A DNA stretch of 33,016 bases from Candidatus Omnitrophota bacterium. Lineage in GTDB: Bacteria > Omnitrophota > Gorgyraeia > Gygaellales > Profunditerraquicolaceae. Within the stretch, counting starts at the first letter, position 1, and each line of letters starts with the position of its first letter. The position numbers and the translations under genes are program-made. The stretch covers positions 1 through 33,016 of the forward strand of contig JAQTQJ010000018.1 of the NCBI GenBank assembly GCA_028712255.1, given 5' to 3'. The notes beneath the pieces were generated by a model that saw only the letters and a program-made list of their open reading frames with translations, was not told the DNA's origin and did not search any database. Below, one piece after another: positions 12,388 through 20,811 of the stretch.

Positions 12388-12993
12388 ATGGAAGAGAAGC
12401 CATTTTTAACGCCAAAGCAGGAAAAGGTGCTTAATTTTATTCGAAAACGGGTAGGGGAGAGGCTCCCTCCTACAATTCGGGAGATAGGGGAGGAGCTGGG
12501 GTTTAAATCTACCGGAACAGTAAGGGATTATCTAAAGGCTTTAATGCAGAAAGGGTTGGTCAGGCGTATGAATAATAAATCTCGGGCGATTGAATTGACT
12601 GAACGCGCTAGTTTTAACAAAATTCCCATAATTGGTACCATTATGGCCGGTAAGCCCAATTTAGCTTATGAAGAAATTCAGGGTTATGTGGATAGTGATG
12701 ATTTATTCCTTGGGCGCTTAGGTTTTGATGATGTTTTTGCTCTAAGGGTTAAAGGCGACAGCATGATTGATGCCGGAATTTTAGATAGCGATATTGCTAT
12801 TATTAAAAAGCGCCCCAGTGCCGATAATAATGATATCGTTGCCGCATTATTGGATAATAACGAGGTTACTTTAAAAAGATTGCGTAGCCGCGCCGGTAAG
12901 TTCCATTTGGAAGCTGCTAACGTAAATTACGCGCCAATCTTTGAAGAGTTTAAGGTTATTGGTAAGCTTATCACGGTAATTAGAAAGTATTAA
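12388..12993 (+). CDS. lexA: LexA repressor
   Basis: SOS transcriptional repressor that cleaves itself when RecA filaments form. 201 aa. The N-terminal winged helix (residues 1-70) carries LTPKQEKVLNFIRKRV, PPTIREIGEELGFKSTGTVRDYL. The autocleavage site is Ala87-Gly88 in TIMAGKP; the catalytic Ser125 is in VKGDSM and Lys163 in VTLKRL, so the protease half is complete. SD is weak (AGGA at 12378-12381). It leads a same-strand cluster with a small protein and dinB, as expected of an SOS-controlled mutagenesis cassette. The nearby palindrome may be its own operator. Confidence 0.95.
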   Translation: MEEKPFLTPKQEKVLNFIRKRVGERLPPTIREIGEELGFKSTGTVRDYLKALMQKGLVRRMNNKSRAIELTERASFNKIPIIGTIMAGKPNLAYEEIQGYVDSDDLFLGRLGFDDVFALRVKGDSMIDAGILDSDIAIIKKRPSADNNDIVAALLDNNEVTLKRLRSRAGKFHLEAANVNYAPIFEEFKVIGKLITVIRKY

Positions 12994-13001
12994 ACCTAAT
13001 A

Positions 13002-13037
13002 AGGGGACGGTTCTCTAATATAAGAGAACCGTCCCCT
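13002..13037. repeat. REP-like inverted repeat between lexA and the next gene
   Basis: AGGGGACGGTTCTCT (13002-13016) pairs perfectly with 13023-13037 over 15 bp with a 6-nt loop. Same GGGGACGG core as the family, shorter AT part. Confidence 0.9.
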
Positions 13038-13046
13038 AGATTTTAT

Positions 13047-13355
13047 ATGAATCAGAATAGTTTTAGCCCTAAGGCCCGCTGGGATAGGTTTGAGCCGGAC
13101 GAGCGCGGTTTTAATCCTGATGCTTTAAATGAGCGTATTGAAGTTTTGGCACATTTTAAGCATGCTAAAATTTTACCTAAAAGCTTCATTTGGAATAATA
13201 AAGAATATAAAATCGAAAATATAACTTATAACTGGCAGGAACGTATTGGCCAAGCTTTGATCAGTTATTTTTCTGTACTTTGTGTAGGTCAGATGTATCA
13301 GCTTTCATTTGATAATACCACCTTCCGCTGGCAGATTGATAAACTGATTCAATAA
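13047..13355 (+). CDS. Small protein in lexA-dinB cassette, DUF6504-like
   Basis: 102 aa from ATG 13047 with no visible SD. The N-terminal 40 residues are polar (KARWDRFEPDERGFN). The C-terminal part has FIWNNKEYKIENITYNWQER, then YFSVLCVGQMYQLSFDNTTFRWQIDKLI: a beta-rich pattern (W-x-x-x-x-Y-x-[IV], F-x-V, Y-x-L-x-[FY]-[DN], W-x-[IL]). It resembles the small DUF6504-type proteins encoded next to Y-family polymerases in other phyla; similarity is by pattern only. Position between lexA and dinB suggests a role in translesion synthesis, perhaps as a polymerase partner. It ends 33 bp before dinB. Confidence 0.6.
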   Translation: MNQNSFSPKARWDRFEPDERGFNPDALNERIEVLAHFKHAKILPKSFIWNNKEYKIENITYNWQERIGQALISYFSVLCVGQMYQLSFDNTTFRWQIDKLIQ

Positions 13356-13388
13356 AATCCCGGTAAGTTTAAGTAGAAAGAAACTAAC

Positions 13389-14492
13389 ATGATTTTACAT
13401 GTTGATATGGATGCTTTTTTTGCCTCAATCGAACAGGCAATTAATCCACGCCTAAAAGGCAAACCTTTAATCGTTGGTTCGCGCGGTAGCAAAATGCATA
13501 CAGTAGTTTGCGCTGCAAGTTATGCCGCTAAAGCCTTAGGAATTCATTCCGGTATGCCATCGCGTGAGGCTTTTGACAGATGCCCGAATTTAGAGTTTGT
13601 AGCAGCAGATCAGGCTAAGTATATCTGGACTTCAGAACAGATTTTTGAGTTACTGAAAGGTTATGATTTACCGCTAAATTATACCTCAATCGATGAGTTT
13701 CAAATGGATGTGTCGGGTTGCCAAAACCCGCTAACGTTGGGTAAGGAAGTTAAAGAGCAGATATATGCAAACTTTAACATTACTGCCTCAGTTGGCATAG
13801 CTAAAAACTGGCTTTTAGCCAAGCTGGCTTCTAAAATAAATAAACCGGATGGACTAACTTTAATTAATGATGAAAACTTTGAAAGCATTTTACGCCAAAC
13901 TTCACTTAATAAACTTTGTGGTATGGGTGGTAAAACCGGTGTTATTTTTATGAATCAGGGCCTAAAAACCTGTTGGGATTTATACCTAAACTTACCGGCT
14001 TTTTTTGATGAAAATTCCGGTAAGTTTGAGGAAAATTGCGGTAAGTCTAGCCAAAAGCCTAAATCAGTAAGCCATTCATACACTCTACCTAAGGCTCAAA
14101 TAAACCCCCAGGTTATCCAGGCTTGGATCAGATTGCTTTCTGAAATGGTTGCTATAAGGCTAAGACAAGAAAATTTAGTTAGTCAAACTGTGCACCTTTA
14201 TTTATGCGGCCCGGAAATCGGTAATTTTGGGGCTCAGAAAACCTATCAAGTTCAAACTAATGATGGTTATGAAATTTATCAAAGAGCCTTTAAAATAATG
14301 GGTAAATCAACCCTTATAAATCCTCGAATTCGGGCAATTGGGGTCACTTGCAGCAGCCTTTCTTGGGACACTAATCAGCCTTTACTTAGCGAAGAAATCC
14401 GTAGGAAGGGGCTAATTTGCGCCCTAGACCGCATAAATAATCGCTTTGGAGAGGGGTCAATTTATCCTGCAGTTACTGTTTTAACTCGTTAG
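13389..14492 (+). CDS. dinB: DNA polymerase IV (Y-family)
   Basis: Error-prone translesion polymerase, 367 aa. Catalytic acids Asp6 and Asp8 are in ILHVDMDAFFASIE, and Asp102/Glu103 in TSIDEFQMD. The fingers segment PLIVGSRGSKMHTVVCAASYAAKALGI is complete, and the helix-hairpin-helix thumb region has SVGIAKNWLLAKLASKINKPDG. Between thumb and little finger is a Ser/Lys/Glu-rich linker (about residues 205-230) with an internal near-repeat (EN-SGKFEENCGKS). The little finger ends in RLVTVLTR-like ALDRINNRFGEGSIYPAVTVLTR. It probably belongs to the LexA regulon. Length is slightly above the usual 350. Confidence 0.92.
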   Translation: MILHVDMDAFFASIEQAINPRLKGKPLIVGSRGSKMHTVVCAASYAAKALGIHSGMPSREAFDRCPNLEFVAADQAKYIWTSEQIFELLKGYDLPLNYTSIDEFQMDVSGCQNPLTLGKEVKEQIYANFNITASVGIAKNWLLAKLASKINKPDGLTLINDENFESILRQTSLNKLCGMGGKTGVIFMNQGLKTCWDLYLNLPAFFDENSGKFEENCGKSSQKPKSVSHSYTLPKAQINPQVIQAWIRLLSEMVAIRLRQENLVSQTVHLYLCGPEIGNFGAQKTYQVQTNDGYEIYQRAFKIMGKSTLINPRIRAIGVTCSSLSWDTNQPLLSEEIRRKGLICALDRINNRFGEGSIYPAVTVLTR

Positions 14493-15259: not shown

Positions 15260-15688
15260 TTATAGTTTATAAACTTTGTCTTCTTGTCTTACTCTGGAAA
15301 TTACCTGTAGGCCAATTTCATCGCCTCTTTTAGCGTTTTGGATAGTTACTCTATCAATCTGTATTGAGGTTACAGGCTGGGTAAAATCCGTAGTATGCCC
15401 TTTGATTTTTACCATATTCCCTATTGCTAAGGGCCCCTTTAATTTGATCACTGCGGCTTGAACATGGGGAAAATAATGTGTTATTAAACCTATAAGGTTA
15501 CCTTCTTTTTTGGGAGGTTTTTTTATTGCTAACTTCTTTTTTGGAGTAGTTTTTTTCTTTAAGGCGGGTTTTCTTTTAATGATTTTTTTCTTAATTGGCT
15601 GCTTTTTGGTTGTTTTTTTTACCGTTTTTTTTCCGCCGAAGGCGGATCCGCCTACGGCGGAGACCCTCTTTTTCTTTTTTAAAGCCAT
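15260..15688 (-). CDS. Lysine-rich tail plus translation-factor-like beta-barrel protein
   Basis: 142 aa from ATG 15688, chosen because GGAGGG lies 8 bp before it. Residues 1-62 are a histone H1-like basic tail (KKKTTPKKK, KKPPKK). Residues 63-142 match the small EF-Tu domain-2-like barrel: IGLITHYFPHVQAAVIKL, GPLAIGNMVKIKGHTTDFTQPVTSIQID, AKRGDEIGLQV, and VYKL at the end. Stand-alone copies of this barrel are common in bacteria with unknown role. The segment SAVGGSAFGG in the tail is encoded by a palindromic element (15632-15661). It is the last gene of the operon that contains the ParA-CBM48 protein. Confidence 0.75.
   Translation of the reverse strand: MALKKKKRVSAVGGSAFGGKKTVKKTTKKQPIKKKIIKRKPALKKKTTPKKKLAIKKPPKKEGNLIGLITHYFPHVQAAVIKLKGPLAIGNMVKIKGHTTDFTQPVTSIQIDRVTIQNAKRGDEIGLQVISRVRQEDKVYKL
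15632..15661. repeat. Palindromic element inside the lysine-rich gene
   Basis: TCCGCCGAAGGCGGATCC and GCCTACGGCGGA form a nested palindrome of 30 bp, encoding S-A-V-G-G-S-A-F-G-G in frame. Ten codons exactly, so the reading frame is kept. Confidence 0.8.
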
Positions 15689-15701
15689 TGGCGAGCCCTC
15701 C

Positions 15702-16028
15702 TTATATGACAACTTCTTCAGATATTTTAGTTACAACTGGTATACGGCAGTAAAAGCCTAAAGCAGATTGCATAATTGCCCATATTGAAATAAGCAGGAA
15801 TAACGCATACCCAAAGACCCCGATTAGCCATCCAAGTAAAGGTATAATTGAAAGTATAAAAGCTGCAACTTCCATTACAAAAAGTACCAATCCTTGTTTA
15901 GCATGGTAAAGAGCGAACTTATTATTTTTTTTTAAAACCAGGGTAATTATACAAAGAAAAGAAACATATGAGATTATAGCAAAGAATCTGCCATCACGAA
16001 TTACTTCTTCGTCTTGCGGGGAAGTCAT
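15702..16028 (-). CDS. DUF4870-like small membrane protein
   Basis: 108 aa from ATG 16028 with SD AGGAGA. Three membrane segments: about 17-32, 44-64 and 67-88, with a conserved-looking FALYHAKQGLVLFV between the first two, which is the typical H-x-[KR]-Q-[GA] loop of the DUF4870/Tic20-like small membrane proteins. Function unknown. It sits 15 bp after the ParA-CBM48 gene and 13 bp before the lysine-rich gene, so it is part of that operon and could act at the membrane with those proteins. Confidence 0.75.
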   Translation of the reverse strand: MTSPQDEEVIRDGRFFAIISYVSFLCIITLVLKKNNKFALYHAKQGLVLFVMEVAAFILSIIPLLGWLIGVFGYALFLLISIWAIMQSALGFYCRIPVVTKISEEVVI

Positions 16029-16043
16029 TTATATTCTCCTAAG

Positions 16044-17141
16044 CTACTTGTTTACTTCTAATAAGGAATCTAATGATCCGTAAGTATTTAATTGGGTTAA
16101 TGGATTATTGGGATCTTCGACCCAATTACCATCAATTACAAAACGGTAACGGTACTTACCGTTGTTTAAGTTTAAGCGTTTAATCCAGCATCCATTGTTT
16201 TTCTCCATCCGGCTGAATTCATCTAGTTTCCAATTATTGAATTCTCCGGCAAGATAAACTTCTTTTGCCTCAGGAGCTTTGATTGTGAGTACAACTTCAT
16301 TTAATTTAGGCAGGTTTTCTTTTATTATCTCTTTTAGGCGTTTCTCAAAGGTTTTCTCTAGAGCCAGGCTAGGTGTTATAGGAAGGGCTTCTTGCGTGAT
16401 GATTTCACGGGAAAGTGAAAAATAATCCTTTGCTCCGCGGCAGTATTTATCATAAACATGTATATGTAATCCTTCGTTTTGCGCTTCCTTTAATTTTACG
16501 TTCACATGGATAATGTTGGAAAACATCCTGTTTTTATAATCAGTTTTGATTTTTTCAAGCATCTTAAATGAATGCTGCAATCTAGAATCAAAGTTAGTTA
16601 CCAGTATCTGGAAATTTACGCTGTGGTTTAGCCTCTCTTTAACCAGATTAATAATACTGGTTAACTGGTTCACGCCTTCAAGAGAAAATCTACTAGCCTC
16701 AACCGGGATGATTATTTCATTTGCCGCCCTTAAGGCGTTAATGGTTAGAATTCCTAAGTTTGGCGGGCAATCAATTAAGATATAATCGTAGTTACTCTGA
16801 AAACCTCTTAAAGTATCCCATAGCCGGGATTCGCGGCCAATCTCACCGCTTAGTTCTTGTTCTAACGTGCTTAGGATTAACGAGGAAGGCGCAATATCAA
16901 AATTCTCTCCGATATTTTGGATTATTTCACCAATTTTTGCTTTTTTATGGGTAATTTTAGAAAGGACATTGTAAATGCTTAATTCAGCTTTAATATTTAA
17001 ACCGCTTGTTGCATGCGCCTGAGGATCAAGGTCGATAAGCAGGACTTTGCGTTTATTAGACGCAAGTGAAGCAGCCAGGTTTATGGAAGTAGTTGTTTTT
17101 CCGCATCCACCTTTCTGATTAGCAATTGAAATTATGCGCAT
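16044..17141 (-). CDS. ParA-family ATPase fused to a C-terminal CBM48/AMPK-type glycogen-binding module
   Basis: 365 aa from ATG 17141 with a strong SD. Residues 1-255 are a ParA/Soj ATPase: KGGCGKTTTS at 10-19 (deviant Walker A with its signature Lys10 and Lys15), IDLDPQAHATSG at 36-47, and YILIDCPPNLGILTINAL as Walker B. A helical linker of about 30 residues follows, then residues about 283-362 form a CBM48-like beta-sandwich: VYLAGEFNNWK, GKYRYRFVIDGNWVEDPNNP. Trp304 and Trp340 align with the glucan-stacking Trp residues of AMPK-beta. The reading is direct and the fusion shows no frame break. ParA-type ATPases position plasmids, chromosomes or protein bodies on the nucleoid; a glycogen-binding end suggests that a polyglucan is the cargo (inference). 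Gap to the upstream gene is 13 bp. Confidence 0.85.
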   Translation of the reverse strand: MRIISIANQKGGCGKTTTSINLAASLASNKRKVLLIDLDPQAHATSGLNIKAELSIYNVLSKITHKKAKIGEIIQNIGENFDIAPSSLILSTLEQELSGEIGRESRLWDTLRGFQSNYDYILIDCPPNLGILTINALRAANEIIIPVEASRFSLEGVNQLTSIINLVKERLNHSVNFQILVTNFDSRLQHSFKMLEKIKTDYKNRMFSNIIHVNVKLKEAQNEGLHIHVYDKYCRGAKDYFSLSREIITQEALPITPSLALEKTFEKRLKEIIKENLPKLNEVVLTIKAPEAKEVYLAGEFNNWKLDEFSRMEKNNGCWIKRLNLNNGKYRYRFVIDGNWVEDPNNPLTQLNTYGSLDSLLEVNK

Positions 17142-17154
17142 TTGCCCCCCCTCC

Positions 17155-17727
17155 CTATTTTATTACTCTTATATTATCAAGATAGACTATGCCTGATTTT
17201 TCACGAGCATTCCATTCCTCAACGCTAAAATCAAGCGATTTCATTTGAGTCCAATCGCCAACTTTTGCGAAACGGCTAAAATCTAATTGTTGTTCTGTCC
17301 ATTTACTTGAAATATCTTTTACGTAAATTTCAGATTTTTCATTGAAGCGATTAGTAAATTCGACTCTCAATGAAATTATATCTTTAGGATTGATTTTTCT
17401 TACTGTAAAAGCCAAGGCTTTATATTTAGATAAATTCAGCTGCTTAAGGTTAAGTGAAAAAACTTCTTTTTTTGCAGGATCAAAATTAAAATTTATTTTT
17501 CCCACATTTTGATATAGAAATAGGGCGATTTGGGCACTTTTGTTGTGATTAATAATGTAAGGATAGGTAGCAACACTTCCTAACCCCAAAATAGACACTA
17601 ATACTAAAAGGATTAATCCTAGTACTATTTTAGGGTAATGTTCTAATCTATGTTTTTTCTTCGAGGACTTAGATGAGGCATCTAGATAAATATTGGCCAG
17701 ATGCTCATAGATTTCTTTCTTATTCAC
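17155..17727 (-). CDS. Membrane-anchored protein with periplasmic carbohydrate-binding-like beta domain
   Basis: 190 aa from GTG 17727. About 30 cytoplasmic residues (helical start, then SSKSSKKKHR) precede a membrane helix at about 33-57 (IVLGLILLVLVSILGLGSV). The outer part has a beta-sandwich pattern: LSKYKALAFTVRKI, ISLRVEFTNRFNEKSEIYV, SKWTEQQLDFSRF, DWTQMKSLDFSVEEW, and GIVYLDNIRVIK. That last motif (G-x-[IV]-Y-[ILV]-D-[ND]-[IV]) is typical of galactose-binding/CBM-like domains. Carbohydrate binding is inference. First gene of the operon; the ParA-CBM48 gene follows directly. Confidence 0.65.
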   Translation of the reverse strand: MNKKEIYEHLANIYLDASSKSSKKKHRLEHYPKIVLGLILLVLVSILGLGSVATYPYIINHNKSAQIALFLYQNVGKINFNFDPAKKEVFSLNLKQLNLSKYKALAFTVRKINPKDIISLRVEFTNRFNEKSEIYVKDISSKWTEQQLDFSRFAKVGDWTQMKSLDFSVEEWNAREKSGIVYLDNIRVIK

Positions 17728-17822
17728 CCAACACCTTTTTTATTTTTATACTTTCCCCTTAACGCCTCTTTTTTAAAGCTAACATTTGATATTAAGAAAG
17801 CGATGGCATCATTTGAGAATAC

Positions 17823-17851
17823 TTTATAACATAAAACCCTATTTATGTCAA
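17823..17851 (-). promoter_or_regulatory. Promoter of the ParA-CBM48 operon
   Basis: On the - strand: TTGACA (17851-17846), 17-nt spacer, TATAAA (17828-17823). The -35 box overlaps the TGA stop of the GH57 gene. The leader to the GTG at 17727 would be about 90 nt. Confidence 0.7.
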
Positions 17852-19407
17852 GGGGTTAAGGGGTCTTTTAAGTATGCCGGAAACTTTTTGTCTATTAATT
17901 TATAAAAGTTAGTTAAGTGTAGCCTGAACAACCGGTCAAATGATCCATCAGGGTCTTCACCAGCCCACCAAAACCAGTCACTGCCTTCTAGGATATGTAT
18001 TTGTTTCCAAGCTAAATCACTTGGGTCTGGAATTTCTTTTATTGCTTTGCGCGCATCTGTCAGCCATTCCCATGCTTTTACTTTATAAGGATTACCGATC
18101 CATTTTCCAAACTCTCCATAGATCCAGCTTCCGGGGGCCAGATGTTTTATTTCAGATTTTGAAGGATTATCTTTTAAGTACTGGCTGATTGTAGTAGTTT
18201 TTACAAATGATGCCTCGGATATATGCCCATAAAATAATTCCAAAAAGTCATGCCCATCATTACGAAAATATTCCCAAGCGTTTTCTCCATCCATAGCAAC
18301 TGTTACCAGAATATTTTTTTCTTTTTGGCCTTTGCCGGAAAATACTTTATTGATATTTTCTAGATGTTTCATAAAATTATTTACGGCGTCGATTTCTGTC
18401 ATTCCTTGATAAGAAAATCCGATTAGATCTGAAAGGTTACGGTCACGAAAAACAATATTAAGTTGGCCTTCTTTTATTTTTAATAAGTGGGGCTTGTAAA
18501 GAAGATTAGTATCACGCTTTTTTGTTCTTAAAGATTTAAATAAAATTGCCTCGTCAGTAACAATCCATTTTATGCCTGATTTAATAATAAACGGTAGGAT
18601 TTCTTCGCTTACCCCTTCTTCCGAAGGCCACATTCCCGAGGGTGCGCAACCAAACCTCTCGTTATAATATTTAACTGCACTATCAATTTGATATTTAGCA
18701 TCCTGCGGGTAGCTAAATTCTTCTTTAGGTAGGTGTGTTTTATTGTTTGCTTCTTTGGCGATATTGGTTGAGTAAAGTAATGGCAAGATTGGATGATAAT
18801 ACGGAGTTACACTAATTTCGATTTGGTTATTTTGTTTATAAAGACAGTATGTAGGAATAATTTCTTTTAGTATGCATAGTTGTTTATCTAAAACAATCGT
18901 TTTGTCCTGCTCGTTGAAAAACCTTTCTTTTAATACTATTTTTTTTAATTCAGGGGTATTCTGCCTAAAAGATGGATCAATCCATGCTAGATTAAATAGT
19001 AACTGTAAATCCAGGTAATCTTGAGTAGAGAATTTCAGGTTGTTATGTTTTTTAGAATAAAGTTGATAAAAACGCGGGAAAGTTGATATTACCTTATCCT
19101 TATTTATAGAGAAAAAATTTTGCAGAATAAATTCTTTGTCATGTTTAGACAATTCTACTGCTGGTTTTTTGCTTAATTCAAGGTATCTATCTCTTACGTT
19201 TGCGTTATTGTAATCTTCAATCTGTTCAAATAAAGATGGAACAACATTAAAAGTTTGTTTTATTTTAGGGAATTTTCCCAGGATTTGCACCATGTCTAGG
19301 TAATCTTTGGCGCCGTGTAGCCTGACCCAAGGCAAATCGCTCTCTTGCGTCAGGAGATTCTTATAATATGGTTGGTGCATATGAAAAATAAAAGCAAGAT
19401 TTACCAT
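17848..19407 (-). CDS. Glycoside hydrolase family 57 protein
   Basis: 519 aa, cytoplasmic (no signal peptide). GH57 enzymes act on alpha-glucans with retention. The conserved regions are visible in order: FIFHMHQPYY at 7-15, EISVTPYYHPILPLL at 197-211, PSGMWPSEEGVSEEIL at 256-271 containing the predicted nucleophile Glu, and VTVAMDGENAWEYF at 369-382 containing the acid/base Asp373. The C-terminal part, with HLAPGSWIYGEFGKWIGNP and EDPDGSFDRLFRLHLTNFY, is typical of the amylopullulanase/alpha-amylase branch. It sits upstream of a CBM48-containing operon, consistent with polyglucan turnover. A terminator hairpin lies 13 bp before its ATG and no SD is seen. Confidence 0.88.
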   Translation of the reverse strand: MVNLAFIFHMHQPYYKNLLTQESDLPWVRLHGAKDYLDMVQILGKFPKIKQTFNVVPSLFEQIEDYNNANVRDRYLELSKKPAVELSKHDKEFILQNFFSINKDKVISTFPRFYQLYSKKHNNLKFSTQDYLDLQLLFNLAWIDPSFRQNTPELKKIVLKERFFNEQDKTIVLDKQLCILKEIIPTYCLYKQNNQIEISVTPYYHPILPLLYSTNIAKEANNKTHLPKEEFSYPQDAKYQIDSAVKYYNERFGCAPSGMWPSEEGVSEEILPFIIKSGIKWIVTDEAILFKSLRTKKRDTNLLYKPHLLKIKEGQLNIVFRDRNLSDLIGFSYQGMTEIDAVNNFMKHLENINKVFSGKGQKEKNILVTVAMDGENAWEYFRNDGHDFLELFYGHISEASFVKTTTISQYLKDNPSKSEIKHLAPGSWIYGEFGKWIGNPYKVKAWEWLTDARKAIKEIPDPSDLAWKQIHILEGSDWFWWAGEDPDGSFDRLFRLHLTNFYKLIDKKFPAYLKDPLTP

Positions 19408-19420
19408 AATTTTAGGTATT

Positions 19421-19454
19421 AAAAAACCCTCGGAGGATTACCCCCCGAGGGTTT
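19421..19454 (-). terminator. Strong rho-independent terminator after the porin gene
   Basis: On the - strand AAACCCTCGG pairs with CCGAGGGTTT around an 11-nt loop, followed by a T6 run (plus-strand AAAAAA at 19421-19426). It lies 22 bp beyond the porin stop and only 13 bp before the GH57 start. Confidence 0.88.
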
Positions 19455-19476: not shown

Positions 19477-20811
19477 TTAGAATACTACTTTCATTGAGCC
19501 AATTACTTGCTGTGCTGATTTTCCATTAGCTGCAAGCGCAGGGCCTGGTCTGAAGACTCCACCAGTTATACCAAATTGCACATCTTCGGTATAATCATAA
19601 GTTGCAGTAATATCAAGGGCTTCACCAAGGTGTGTTTTTCCGGTATACGCAGTAGTTGTTAGATATGCAGTTGCATTATCATAGGAATGTGGAGCAGTAA
19701 ACGCTGCAGCATTCTTTTGAGCTACTCCATAGTATCCGAAAATCGCAGATATAGTTACATCTTCAACAGGTTTCATACTACCTTTTAAATTGAAAGCATT
19801 CATATTTGAGAAAGGTAATAGTGTGTAAACTATATTGTTGAGTTTTTGATCATAAAACAGAGAATCCCAACCAGAATTTCTAGTGCCACCAGTTTGGTCT
19901 CCAGAAAGATAGGTATAAGAAGCACCAATCTTAGGAGTAGTTTTTACTTTGGCAAAAGTATAGTCTGTCATTGCCTGTAATGCCCAGGCATCATGTTTTT
20001 TTGCACCAGTAGCCGAAGCAGCGTTTCTTCCAAGTTGATAAGCAGCTTCTAAAGAAGCAGTTAGATTTTCAATTGGAGAACTAGAAATTAAAGCGCCAAA
20101 TGTTGAAAGTTGATCTGTTCTGGTCCCGGTAGCAACAGGAGCAGTATTATTATCTCTTTTTAGCCAGTAATAAACAGAAACATCAGTCTTTTTGTTTAAT
20201 GCATATGTGGCATTAATACCAGTTAGGCTGATAGTATTTCTATCAGTTGTCATGGCTTGTTTTACTTGAGCATAAACTAAATCCACTACCAATGGATCAT
20301 AGTTTAAAGTTGCGCGAATTGCATCAAAGGCTTTTCTTTCCGTTAAATCAGTAGGAATGGTTGATGAGGTGCCGGCAATTTTTGCATTGCCAATAACAAA
20401 ACCATTACCGAATTTAATTTCTTGACGGCCTATAGTTAAAGTTAAAGGTGAATACAAAAATTCTTTTAGAGTAACATAAGCAAGGTCTAAATCAATATTT
20501 CCATTATTGCTATTAGCGGCTCCAGTATCCATCTGTCCGTTCCAGATTCTCTCATTGATAAGTCTTACGGTTGCCATGACATTATCAGTAAGATCAGCAT
20601 CAACGCGTAATCTGATCTGGCTCATTAAGAAGTTTTGTTTCAAGACGCTCTTGTCAGCACCAGTTGATGCCAAATTGAAATGATGTCTTGATACTCCACT
20701 TGCTAAAATGTCTCCGGAAACTTTTACATTCTGCACTTCTGCATAGGCGGCGCTAAATGTCAGCCCGACTATCAAAGCAAGCGCTAATACTACTATTAAG
20801 CGTTTACCCAT
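19477..20811 (-). CDS. Outer-membrane beta-barrel protein, alginate-export/porin-like
   Basis: 444 aa from ATG 20811 with a strong SD (AAGGAGGAG). Signal peptide at 1-24 (KRLIVVLALALIVGLTFSAAYA). Thereafter the chain alternates polar and aromatic residues in short beta strands, with QIRLRVDADLTDNVMATVRLINE and LTIGRQEIKFGNGFVIG, a pattern of the alginate-export family (R-x-E-x-x-[FY]-G). It ends in GSMKVVF, and the final Phe is the sorting signal for the barrel assembly machinery, so the organism is diderm. It may import or export oligosaccharides; substrate unknown. It has its own promoter and terminator and is probably highly expressed. Confidence 0.85.
   Translation of the reverse strand: MGKRLIVVLALALIVGLTFSAAYAEVQNVKVSGDILASGVSRHHFNLASTGADKSVLKQNFLMSQIRLRVDADLTDNVMATVRLINERIWNGQMDTGAANSNNGNIDLDLAYVTLKEFLYSPLTLTIGRQEIKFGNGFVIGNAKIAGTSSTIPTDLTERKAFDAIRATLNYDPLVVDLVYAQVKQAMTTDRNTISLTGINATYALNKKTDVSVYYWLKRDNNTAPVATGTRTDQLSTFGALISSSPIENLTASLEAAYQLGRNAASATGAKKHDAWALQAMTDYTFAKVKTTPKIGASYTYLSGDQTGGTRNSGWDSLFYDQKLNNIVYTLLPFSNMNAFNLKGSMKPVEDVTISAIFGYYGVAQKNAAAFTAPHSYDNATAYLTTTAYTGKTHLGEALDITATYDYTEDVQFGITGGVFRPGPALAANGKSAQQVIGSMKVVF

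Follow-up and report, generated by a model that had tools for sequence, protein, structure and literature searches.

The question raised by this locus is what a ParA-type ATPase does with a glycogen-binding module. The gene (positions 16044-17141, minus strand, 365 amino acids) lies in a 33,016-nt stretch of DNA from a Candidatus Omnitrophota bacterium (contig JAQTQJ010000018.1), here called the window, whose host genome measures 1.7 Mb. A sequence-only reading had described it as an intact ParA ATPase joined to a CBM48/AMPK-type carbohydrate-binding module (CBM), and had suggested storage polyglucan as the cargo. The fusion itself is clear from profile, structure and conservation data. With moderate confidence, we propose from the sequences that it belongs to a dedicated ParA/MinD-type system for intracellular, glycogen-like alpha-glucan, in which the ATPase would grip the polyglucan and tether or position it on the nucleoid.

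The fusion protein consists of a ParA part (residues 1-255), a linker (257-276) and an AMPK-type CBM (281-364). Both ends match Pfam profiles, confirming the earlier domain assignment: residues 1-176 match PF13614 at 2.4e-56, and residues 291-364 match AMPK1_CBM (PF16561) at 4.8e-14, with 52.8 bits against a gathering score of 26.8. The C-terminus also matches CBM_48 (6.8e-5) and AMPK beta CBM structures (3e-11). In the AlphaFold2 model (overall predicted local distance difference test score, pLDDT, of 92), the linker residues 257-276 are helical, and the top Foldseek matches of the model are Soj/ParA. Among solved structures in the PDB, Soj/ParA is likewise closest to the N-terminus (8ray, 2e-55), with McdA far behind (6e-14); Pfam also gave a weak BcsQ match (2.6e-8) beside the ParA match. 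The greater nearness to Soj, together with the absence of carboxysome genes from the listed neighbours, led us to reject membership in McdAB. Fusion variants of 400-450 amino acids with a longer ParA-CBM linker occur in families f25, f27 and f30 of the class (L058-L065).

We then compared the fusions in two alignments of 46 members each, one at class level and one spanning several phyla. The ATPase residues K10, K15, D37, D39 and D124 are invariant, so that the deviant Walker A with its signature lysine, the DxD and the Walker B are all present. In the CBM, W304 and W340, which align with W100 and W133 of AMPK, are invariant in both alignments (46/46), as are F301, Y332, D337 and D343. The CBM-like domain might alternatively be an Ig-like protein-interaction domain that has lost sugar binding, which would leave the fusion an ordinary orphan ParA. 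Non-binding roles exist among CBM48-like folds, and a T9SS plug family weakly matches the CBM region. We regard this as improbable, because both ligand-stacking tryptophans are invariant over deep divergence and ties to alpha-glucan genes recur, as described below. In the ParA of Myxococcus xanthus, R238 is a DNA-binding residue and L150, G151, L152 and L192 form the ParB pocket (PMC12462528). Mapped by alignment through 8ray, R238 corresponds to K216 of the fusion, a position held by K or R in 42 of the 46 class members, and the pocket corresponds to L129, G130, I131 and L171, which are largely kept. The P-loop carries a cysteine (KGGCGKT) where Soj has a valine. Since 45/46 members of the class set, gathered independently of this pattern, share it, the cysteine is a signature of the fusion family.

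Of the 108 genomes in the host's GTDB family, about 80 carry a recognisable fusion, near full length for about 70 of them in one alignment, and many families of the Omnitrophota class have it with identities of at least 50%. When named genomes were scanned by sequence pattern, full-length fusions of 36-47% identity turned up in at least seven further groups (Rokubacteria, Myxococcota, Desulfobacterota, Planctomycetota, Eisenbacteria, Latescibacterota and Auribacterota). Because full-length fusions thus extend over phyla at 36-87% identity with both CBM tryptophans invariant, the fusion is not a product of chance. All 40 genomes picked as carriers have it at full length, nearly all of them with a separate Soj-type match as well, and a divergent fusion turned up in 5 of 40 genomes presumed negative. 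In a tree with 20 Omnitrophota Soj proteins, the ParA domains of 46 fusions group together as a single clade (support 100/98), and the Soj of the host genome adjoins its own ParB. These observations indicate that the fusion is a dedicated second ParA. A role as a second chromosome- or plasmid-partition ParA would agree with its Soj-like sequence and fold; it is extremely improbable given the separate Soj-ParB pair, the separate clade and the lack of any ParB-domain partner at the fusion loci. Membership in ParABS was rejected on similar grounds, the host's Soj-ParB being separate and the neighbours of the fusion being a transmembrane (TM) CBM11-like protein and small proteins.

In Omnitrophia, across the class, the fusion is directly preceded by a gene for a membrane protein of 190 residues (17155-17727, minus strand, in the window). 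Conservation of the neighbours with the fusion in related genomes was a test that the sequence-only reading had set, and it was passed. The protein consists of a predicted cytoplasmic N-terminal peptide (KKEIYEHLANIYLDASSK), a lysine stretch, a TM helix (33-60) and a predicted periplasmic CBM11-like jelly roll. Under a loose expression, 82 of 83 sequences carry IY[DE]HLAxxYL in the N-terminus, with a Lys/Arg stretch behind it. By genome-wide tight DNA patterns, the motif is nearly unique in each genome (0-1 matches in the reversed control); the loose expression is too noisy when used without local context. The tight Omnitrophia pattern occurs once in 41 of 62 genomes and twice in one, with zero matches in the reversed control, and all matches but one extra adjoin the fusion. 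In an AlphaFold2 model of the partner (pLDDT 86.6), the motif forms a helix, with a TM helix and a jelly roll of nine strands behind it; for this model Foldseek returned CBM11, CBM30, CBM28 and CBM16 (best 1.6e-7). This agrees with the carbohydrate-binding-like periplasmic domain suggested earlier, here predicted to be CBM11-like. A weak CBM_11 profile match was seen in 4 of 32 Omnitrophia partners, and a PDB sequence search with the membrane partner gave nothing meaningful.

In other phyla and in the Omnitrophota family f35, it is the gene directly downstream of the fusion that often starts with a ParB-like motif, LGRGLEDISHLFLS. Examples are KLGKGLEDISYLFLS and PLGRGLEDVSHLFLS, and the N-terminus of the host's own ParB, ALGKGLGALIPEK, is much alike. 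At GC-rich relative loci, open reading frames were chosen with homology support. The bodies behind this motif vary: some are degenerate MinD/FlhG-like proteins, some are uncharacterised, and one has a helix-turn-helix, a TM stretch and RodZ_C. Partners of ParA/MinD ATPases generally act through a short basic N-terminus, an activating peptide attached to otherwise unrelated proteins (PMC7993993, PMC10241942). The adjacent gene is therefore probably, to judge from its sequence, the ATPase-activating partner of the fusion, a role that the sequence-only reading had missed although it had noted the membrane protein. For the fusion in the window, MNKKEIYEHLANIYLDASSK is the putative activating peptide. 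The partner of one Desulfobacterota fusion (L153:1614-2966) joins the motif to a helix-turn-helix, a coiled coil, the TM stretch and the RodZ C-terminal domain. In several phyla (L118, L121, L128, L120 and the f35 loci), another small gene or domain (clusters c3/c42) recurs after the fusion or after its partner; the single member scanned, the L118 partner, had no Pfam match.

Such partners raise the possibility that the membrane partner lets the ATPase position a glycan complex of the membrane or periplasm, with the cytoplasmic CBM binding nascent or exported polysaccharide or acting only in docking. The TM helix and CBM11-like periplasmic fold in Omnitrophia, the TM stretch and RodZ_C of the L153 partner, and a porin gene upstream at many loci would suit this. 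However, partners in other lineages look soluble, and the enzymes encoded nearby belong to cytoplasmic storage metabolism. In the window, moreover, a terminator-like hairpin (19432-19445, minus strand) parts the porin gene (19477-20811, Alginate_exp 3.2e-35) from the unit led by a GH57 gene. We consider envelope positioning quite unlikely.

We then investigated the link between the fusion and alpha-glucan enzymes, using a fixed enzyme query set and matched Soj loci as control. An alpha-glucan enzyme lies within 8 kb of 23 of 64 Omnitrophota fusion loci and of 0 of 20 Soj loci (Fisher p=6e-4). Counted by family, the figures are 11/26 and 0/12 (p=0.006), and within the same 20 genomes 8 fusion loci and 0 Soj loci have one. 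Because related genomes are not independent, three distinct enzyme arrangements outweigh these p-values. First, the fusion is linked to a branching enzyme in an operon of seven f35 genomes, which reads pseudopilin, ParA-CBM, FlhG-like protein with the motif, an unknown gene, YfiH-like protein, DUF4912 protein and GH57 branching enzyme (BE_C); L201 differs from the other six in having two extra genes between the last two. Second, GlgP comes after the fusion operon in L044. Third, GlgB adjoins the fusion in L144 and is two genes off in L153. The DUF4912 protein of the f35 operon has the ParB-like motif in its Lys-rich N-terminus in 5 of the 7 genomes; the motif is absent from the DUF4912 proteins of the host genome and L116. 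The storage-polyglucan link proposed earlier now has independent genomic support from enzyme synteny, with three kinds of enzyme, from the DUF4912 motif and from a Soj control with none (0/20), while positioning, as opposed to sensing or tethering, is a step that we infer. The DUF4912 motif reads KLGKGLEDISxLFLS and stands before the GH57 branching enzyme in L070:2895-4430 (minus strand), L072, L073, L198 and L200. The L144 record, titled Methanomassiliicoccales archaeon, holds a bacterial-type fusion beside its GlgB gene, and its metagenome-assembled-genome label looks doubtful.

In the window, the enzyme beside the fusion operon is a GH57 glycoside hydrolase (17848-19407, minus strand; PF03065, 2.5e-57) that is not of the BE_C branching type and whose closest solved structures are 8zyi and 9jlq. 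It lies immediately upstream, as had been described, but the arrangement is not universal, being found mainly in the order of the host and in two other families, f21 and f38. Elsewhere, the host genome has GlgA, a phosphorylase and a BE_C branching enzyme (GH57) beside DUF4912, and no GH13.

The operonic ties to glucan enzymes suit regulation equally. The chief rival explanation is accordingly a glucan sensor or regulator, in which the CBM would read the polyglucan state and ATP-dependent partner binding would signal to enzymes, envelope or transcription, leaving granules unmoved, by analogy with BcsQ and FlhG. The partners in several phyla are FlhG/MinD-like or have a helix-turn-helix, and MerR-like and sigma-factor genes flank the Myxococcota fusion loci. 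Nevertheless, the closest relatives of the ATPase are Soj/ParA rather than BcsQ or FlhG, and the DNA-binding and ParB-pocket positions are retained. We therefore rate a sensor or regulator as unlikely, though a reading to be taken seriously.

Several points weigh against a polyglucan-tethering or -positioning ATPase, which we nonetheless favour. In the CBM, R, K or Q stands where AMPK has K126, and N or D where it has N150, which leaves the glucan affinity of the module uncertain. Outside Omnitrophia, the motif expression misses about half of the downstream genes. The likeness between the Omnitrophia and ParB-like motifs is weak (position-specific scoring matrix, Mann-Whitney p=0.014; 3 of 36 above the 95% level of the control); since this match is only marginal, we take the two motifs as analogous, not as proven identical. 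A membrane-anchored partner would also be unusual in a nucleoid-gradient system. Most fusion loci outside Omnitrophota are without a glucan enzyme within 10 kb. Finally, glycogen synthase is present in 38 of 40 Omnitrophota genomes with a close fusion and in 38 of 40 without one; being near-universal in the phylum, it does not discriminate.

The sequences show the fusion, its catalytic residues, the glucan-site tryptophans, the partner gene, the motif and the synteny, and from them we infer the following scheme of glucan binding, nucleoid binding, peptide activation and granule positioning. The fusion ATPase would bind ATP, dimerise and then probably sit on the nucleoid as Soj does, while its C-terminal AMPK-type CBM would hold the polyglucan directly. 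With the CBM on the ATPase itself, the motor would carry its own cargo grip. The partner encoded next door would set off ATP hydrolysis and release by fitting its short ParB-like N-terminal peptide into the conserved ParB pocket. In Omnitrophia this partner would be anchored in the inner membrane with its CBM11-like domain on the outer side, and in other lineages it would be a soluble MinD/FlhG-like or other protein. In f35, the peptide may also be presented by the DUF4912 protein, whose gene precedes that of the branching enzyme. Polyglucan particles could in this way be evenly distributed, inherited or exchanged close to the membrane.

Compared with known systems, the fusion shares with chromosomal ParA/Soj (ParABS) the fold, Walker residues, DNA-binding position and ParB-pocket residues, as well as a partner with a short N-terminal motif (ALGKGLGALIPEK in the host's ParB, KLGKGLEDISYLFLS in fusion partners). 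It differs in its extra C-terminal module, predicted to bind glucan, in lacking ParB/parS, in forming its own clade, and in being a second ParA in addition to Soj. McdA/McdB likewise combines a ParA-family ATPase thought to place metabolic cargo with a basic N-terminal partner peptide; in the fusion, however, the cargo would be polysaccharide, the putative cargo-binding domain is on the ATPase, and the relationship is nearer to Soj. AMPK beta has a CBM48 of the same domain family with both glucan-stacking tryptophans, but on a kinase scaffold rather than a ParA ATPase. BcsQ of cellulose synthesis is also a ParA/MinD-type ATPase linked to polysaccharide, but it lacks a CBM, and the polymer that it serves is exported. 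PomXYZ of Myxococcus shares the modular activating peptide on unrelated partner proteins, whereas its cargo is the division site and it has no carbohydrate module.

The cargos of ParA/MinD systems in the literature cited are DNA or protein assemblies. We found no description of a glucan-binding ParA in the open-access papers searched, subscription journals and preprints being outside this coverage. Spatial ParA/MinD systems are a known kind; what is new, as far as checked, is that the ATPase itself would hold a polysaccharide cargo. In Escherichia coli, glycogen forms condensates that gather at the old pole, skewing both division and the placement of the nucleoid (PMC12706056). This passive build-up raises the question of whether some bacteria partition storage polymer actively, for which the fusion family, spread over several phyla, is a concrete candidate whose glucan site, activating peptide and partner are all predicted. 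Tentatively, we see a widespread class of ParA with polysaccharide cargo, which would carry its own glycogen module, use swappable partners (membrane CBM11-like, FlhG-like, DUF4912) that share an activating peptide, and allow cells to distribute or inherit glycogen actively. These findings suggest that many uncultured bacteria position or tether their stored sugar polymer actively. They also offer a possible role, through its ParB-like motif, for the uncharacterised DUF4912 domain, the gene of which adjoins that of the branching enzyme.

The remaining genes of the operon are as previously described. On the minus strand, transcription runs from the GH57 gene through the membrane protein and the ParA-CBM fusion to a small membrane protein (15702-16028), which is DUF4870-like at a score under the Pfam cut-off, and a protein with a Lys/Arg-rich tail and a small beta-barrel-like domain (15260-15712), for which a Pfam search gave no match. 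The last four genes are spaced by 13, 15 and -11 nt. The host genome also encodes a stand-alone AMPK-type CBM protein of 91 amino acids (L003:1495-1770, minus strand) beside envelope biosynthesis genes. Elsewhere in the window, on the plus strand (12388-14492), genes for a LexA-like repressor, a small protein and a DinB-type polymerase follow one another, and, judged by eye from the sequence, this trio looks like an SOS mutagenesis cassette.

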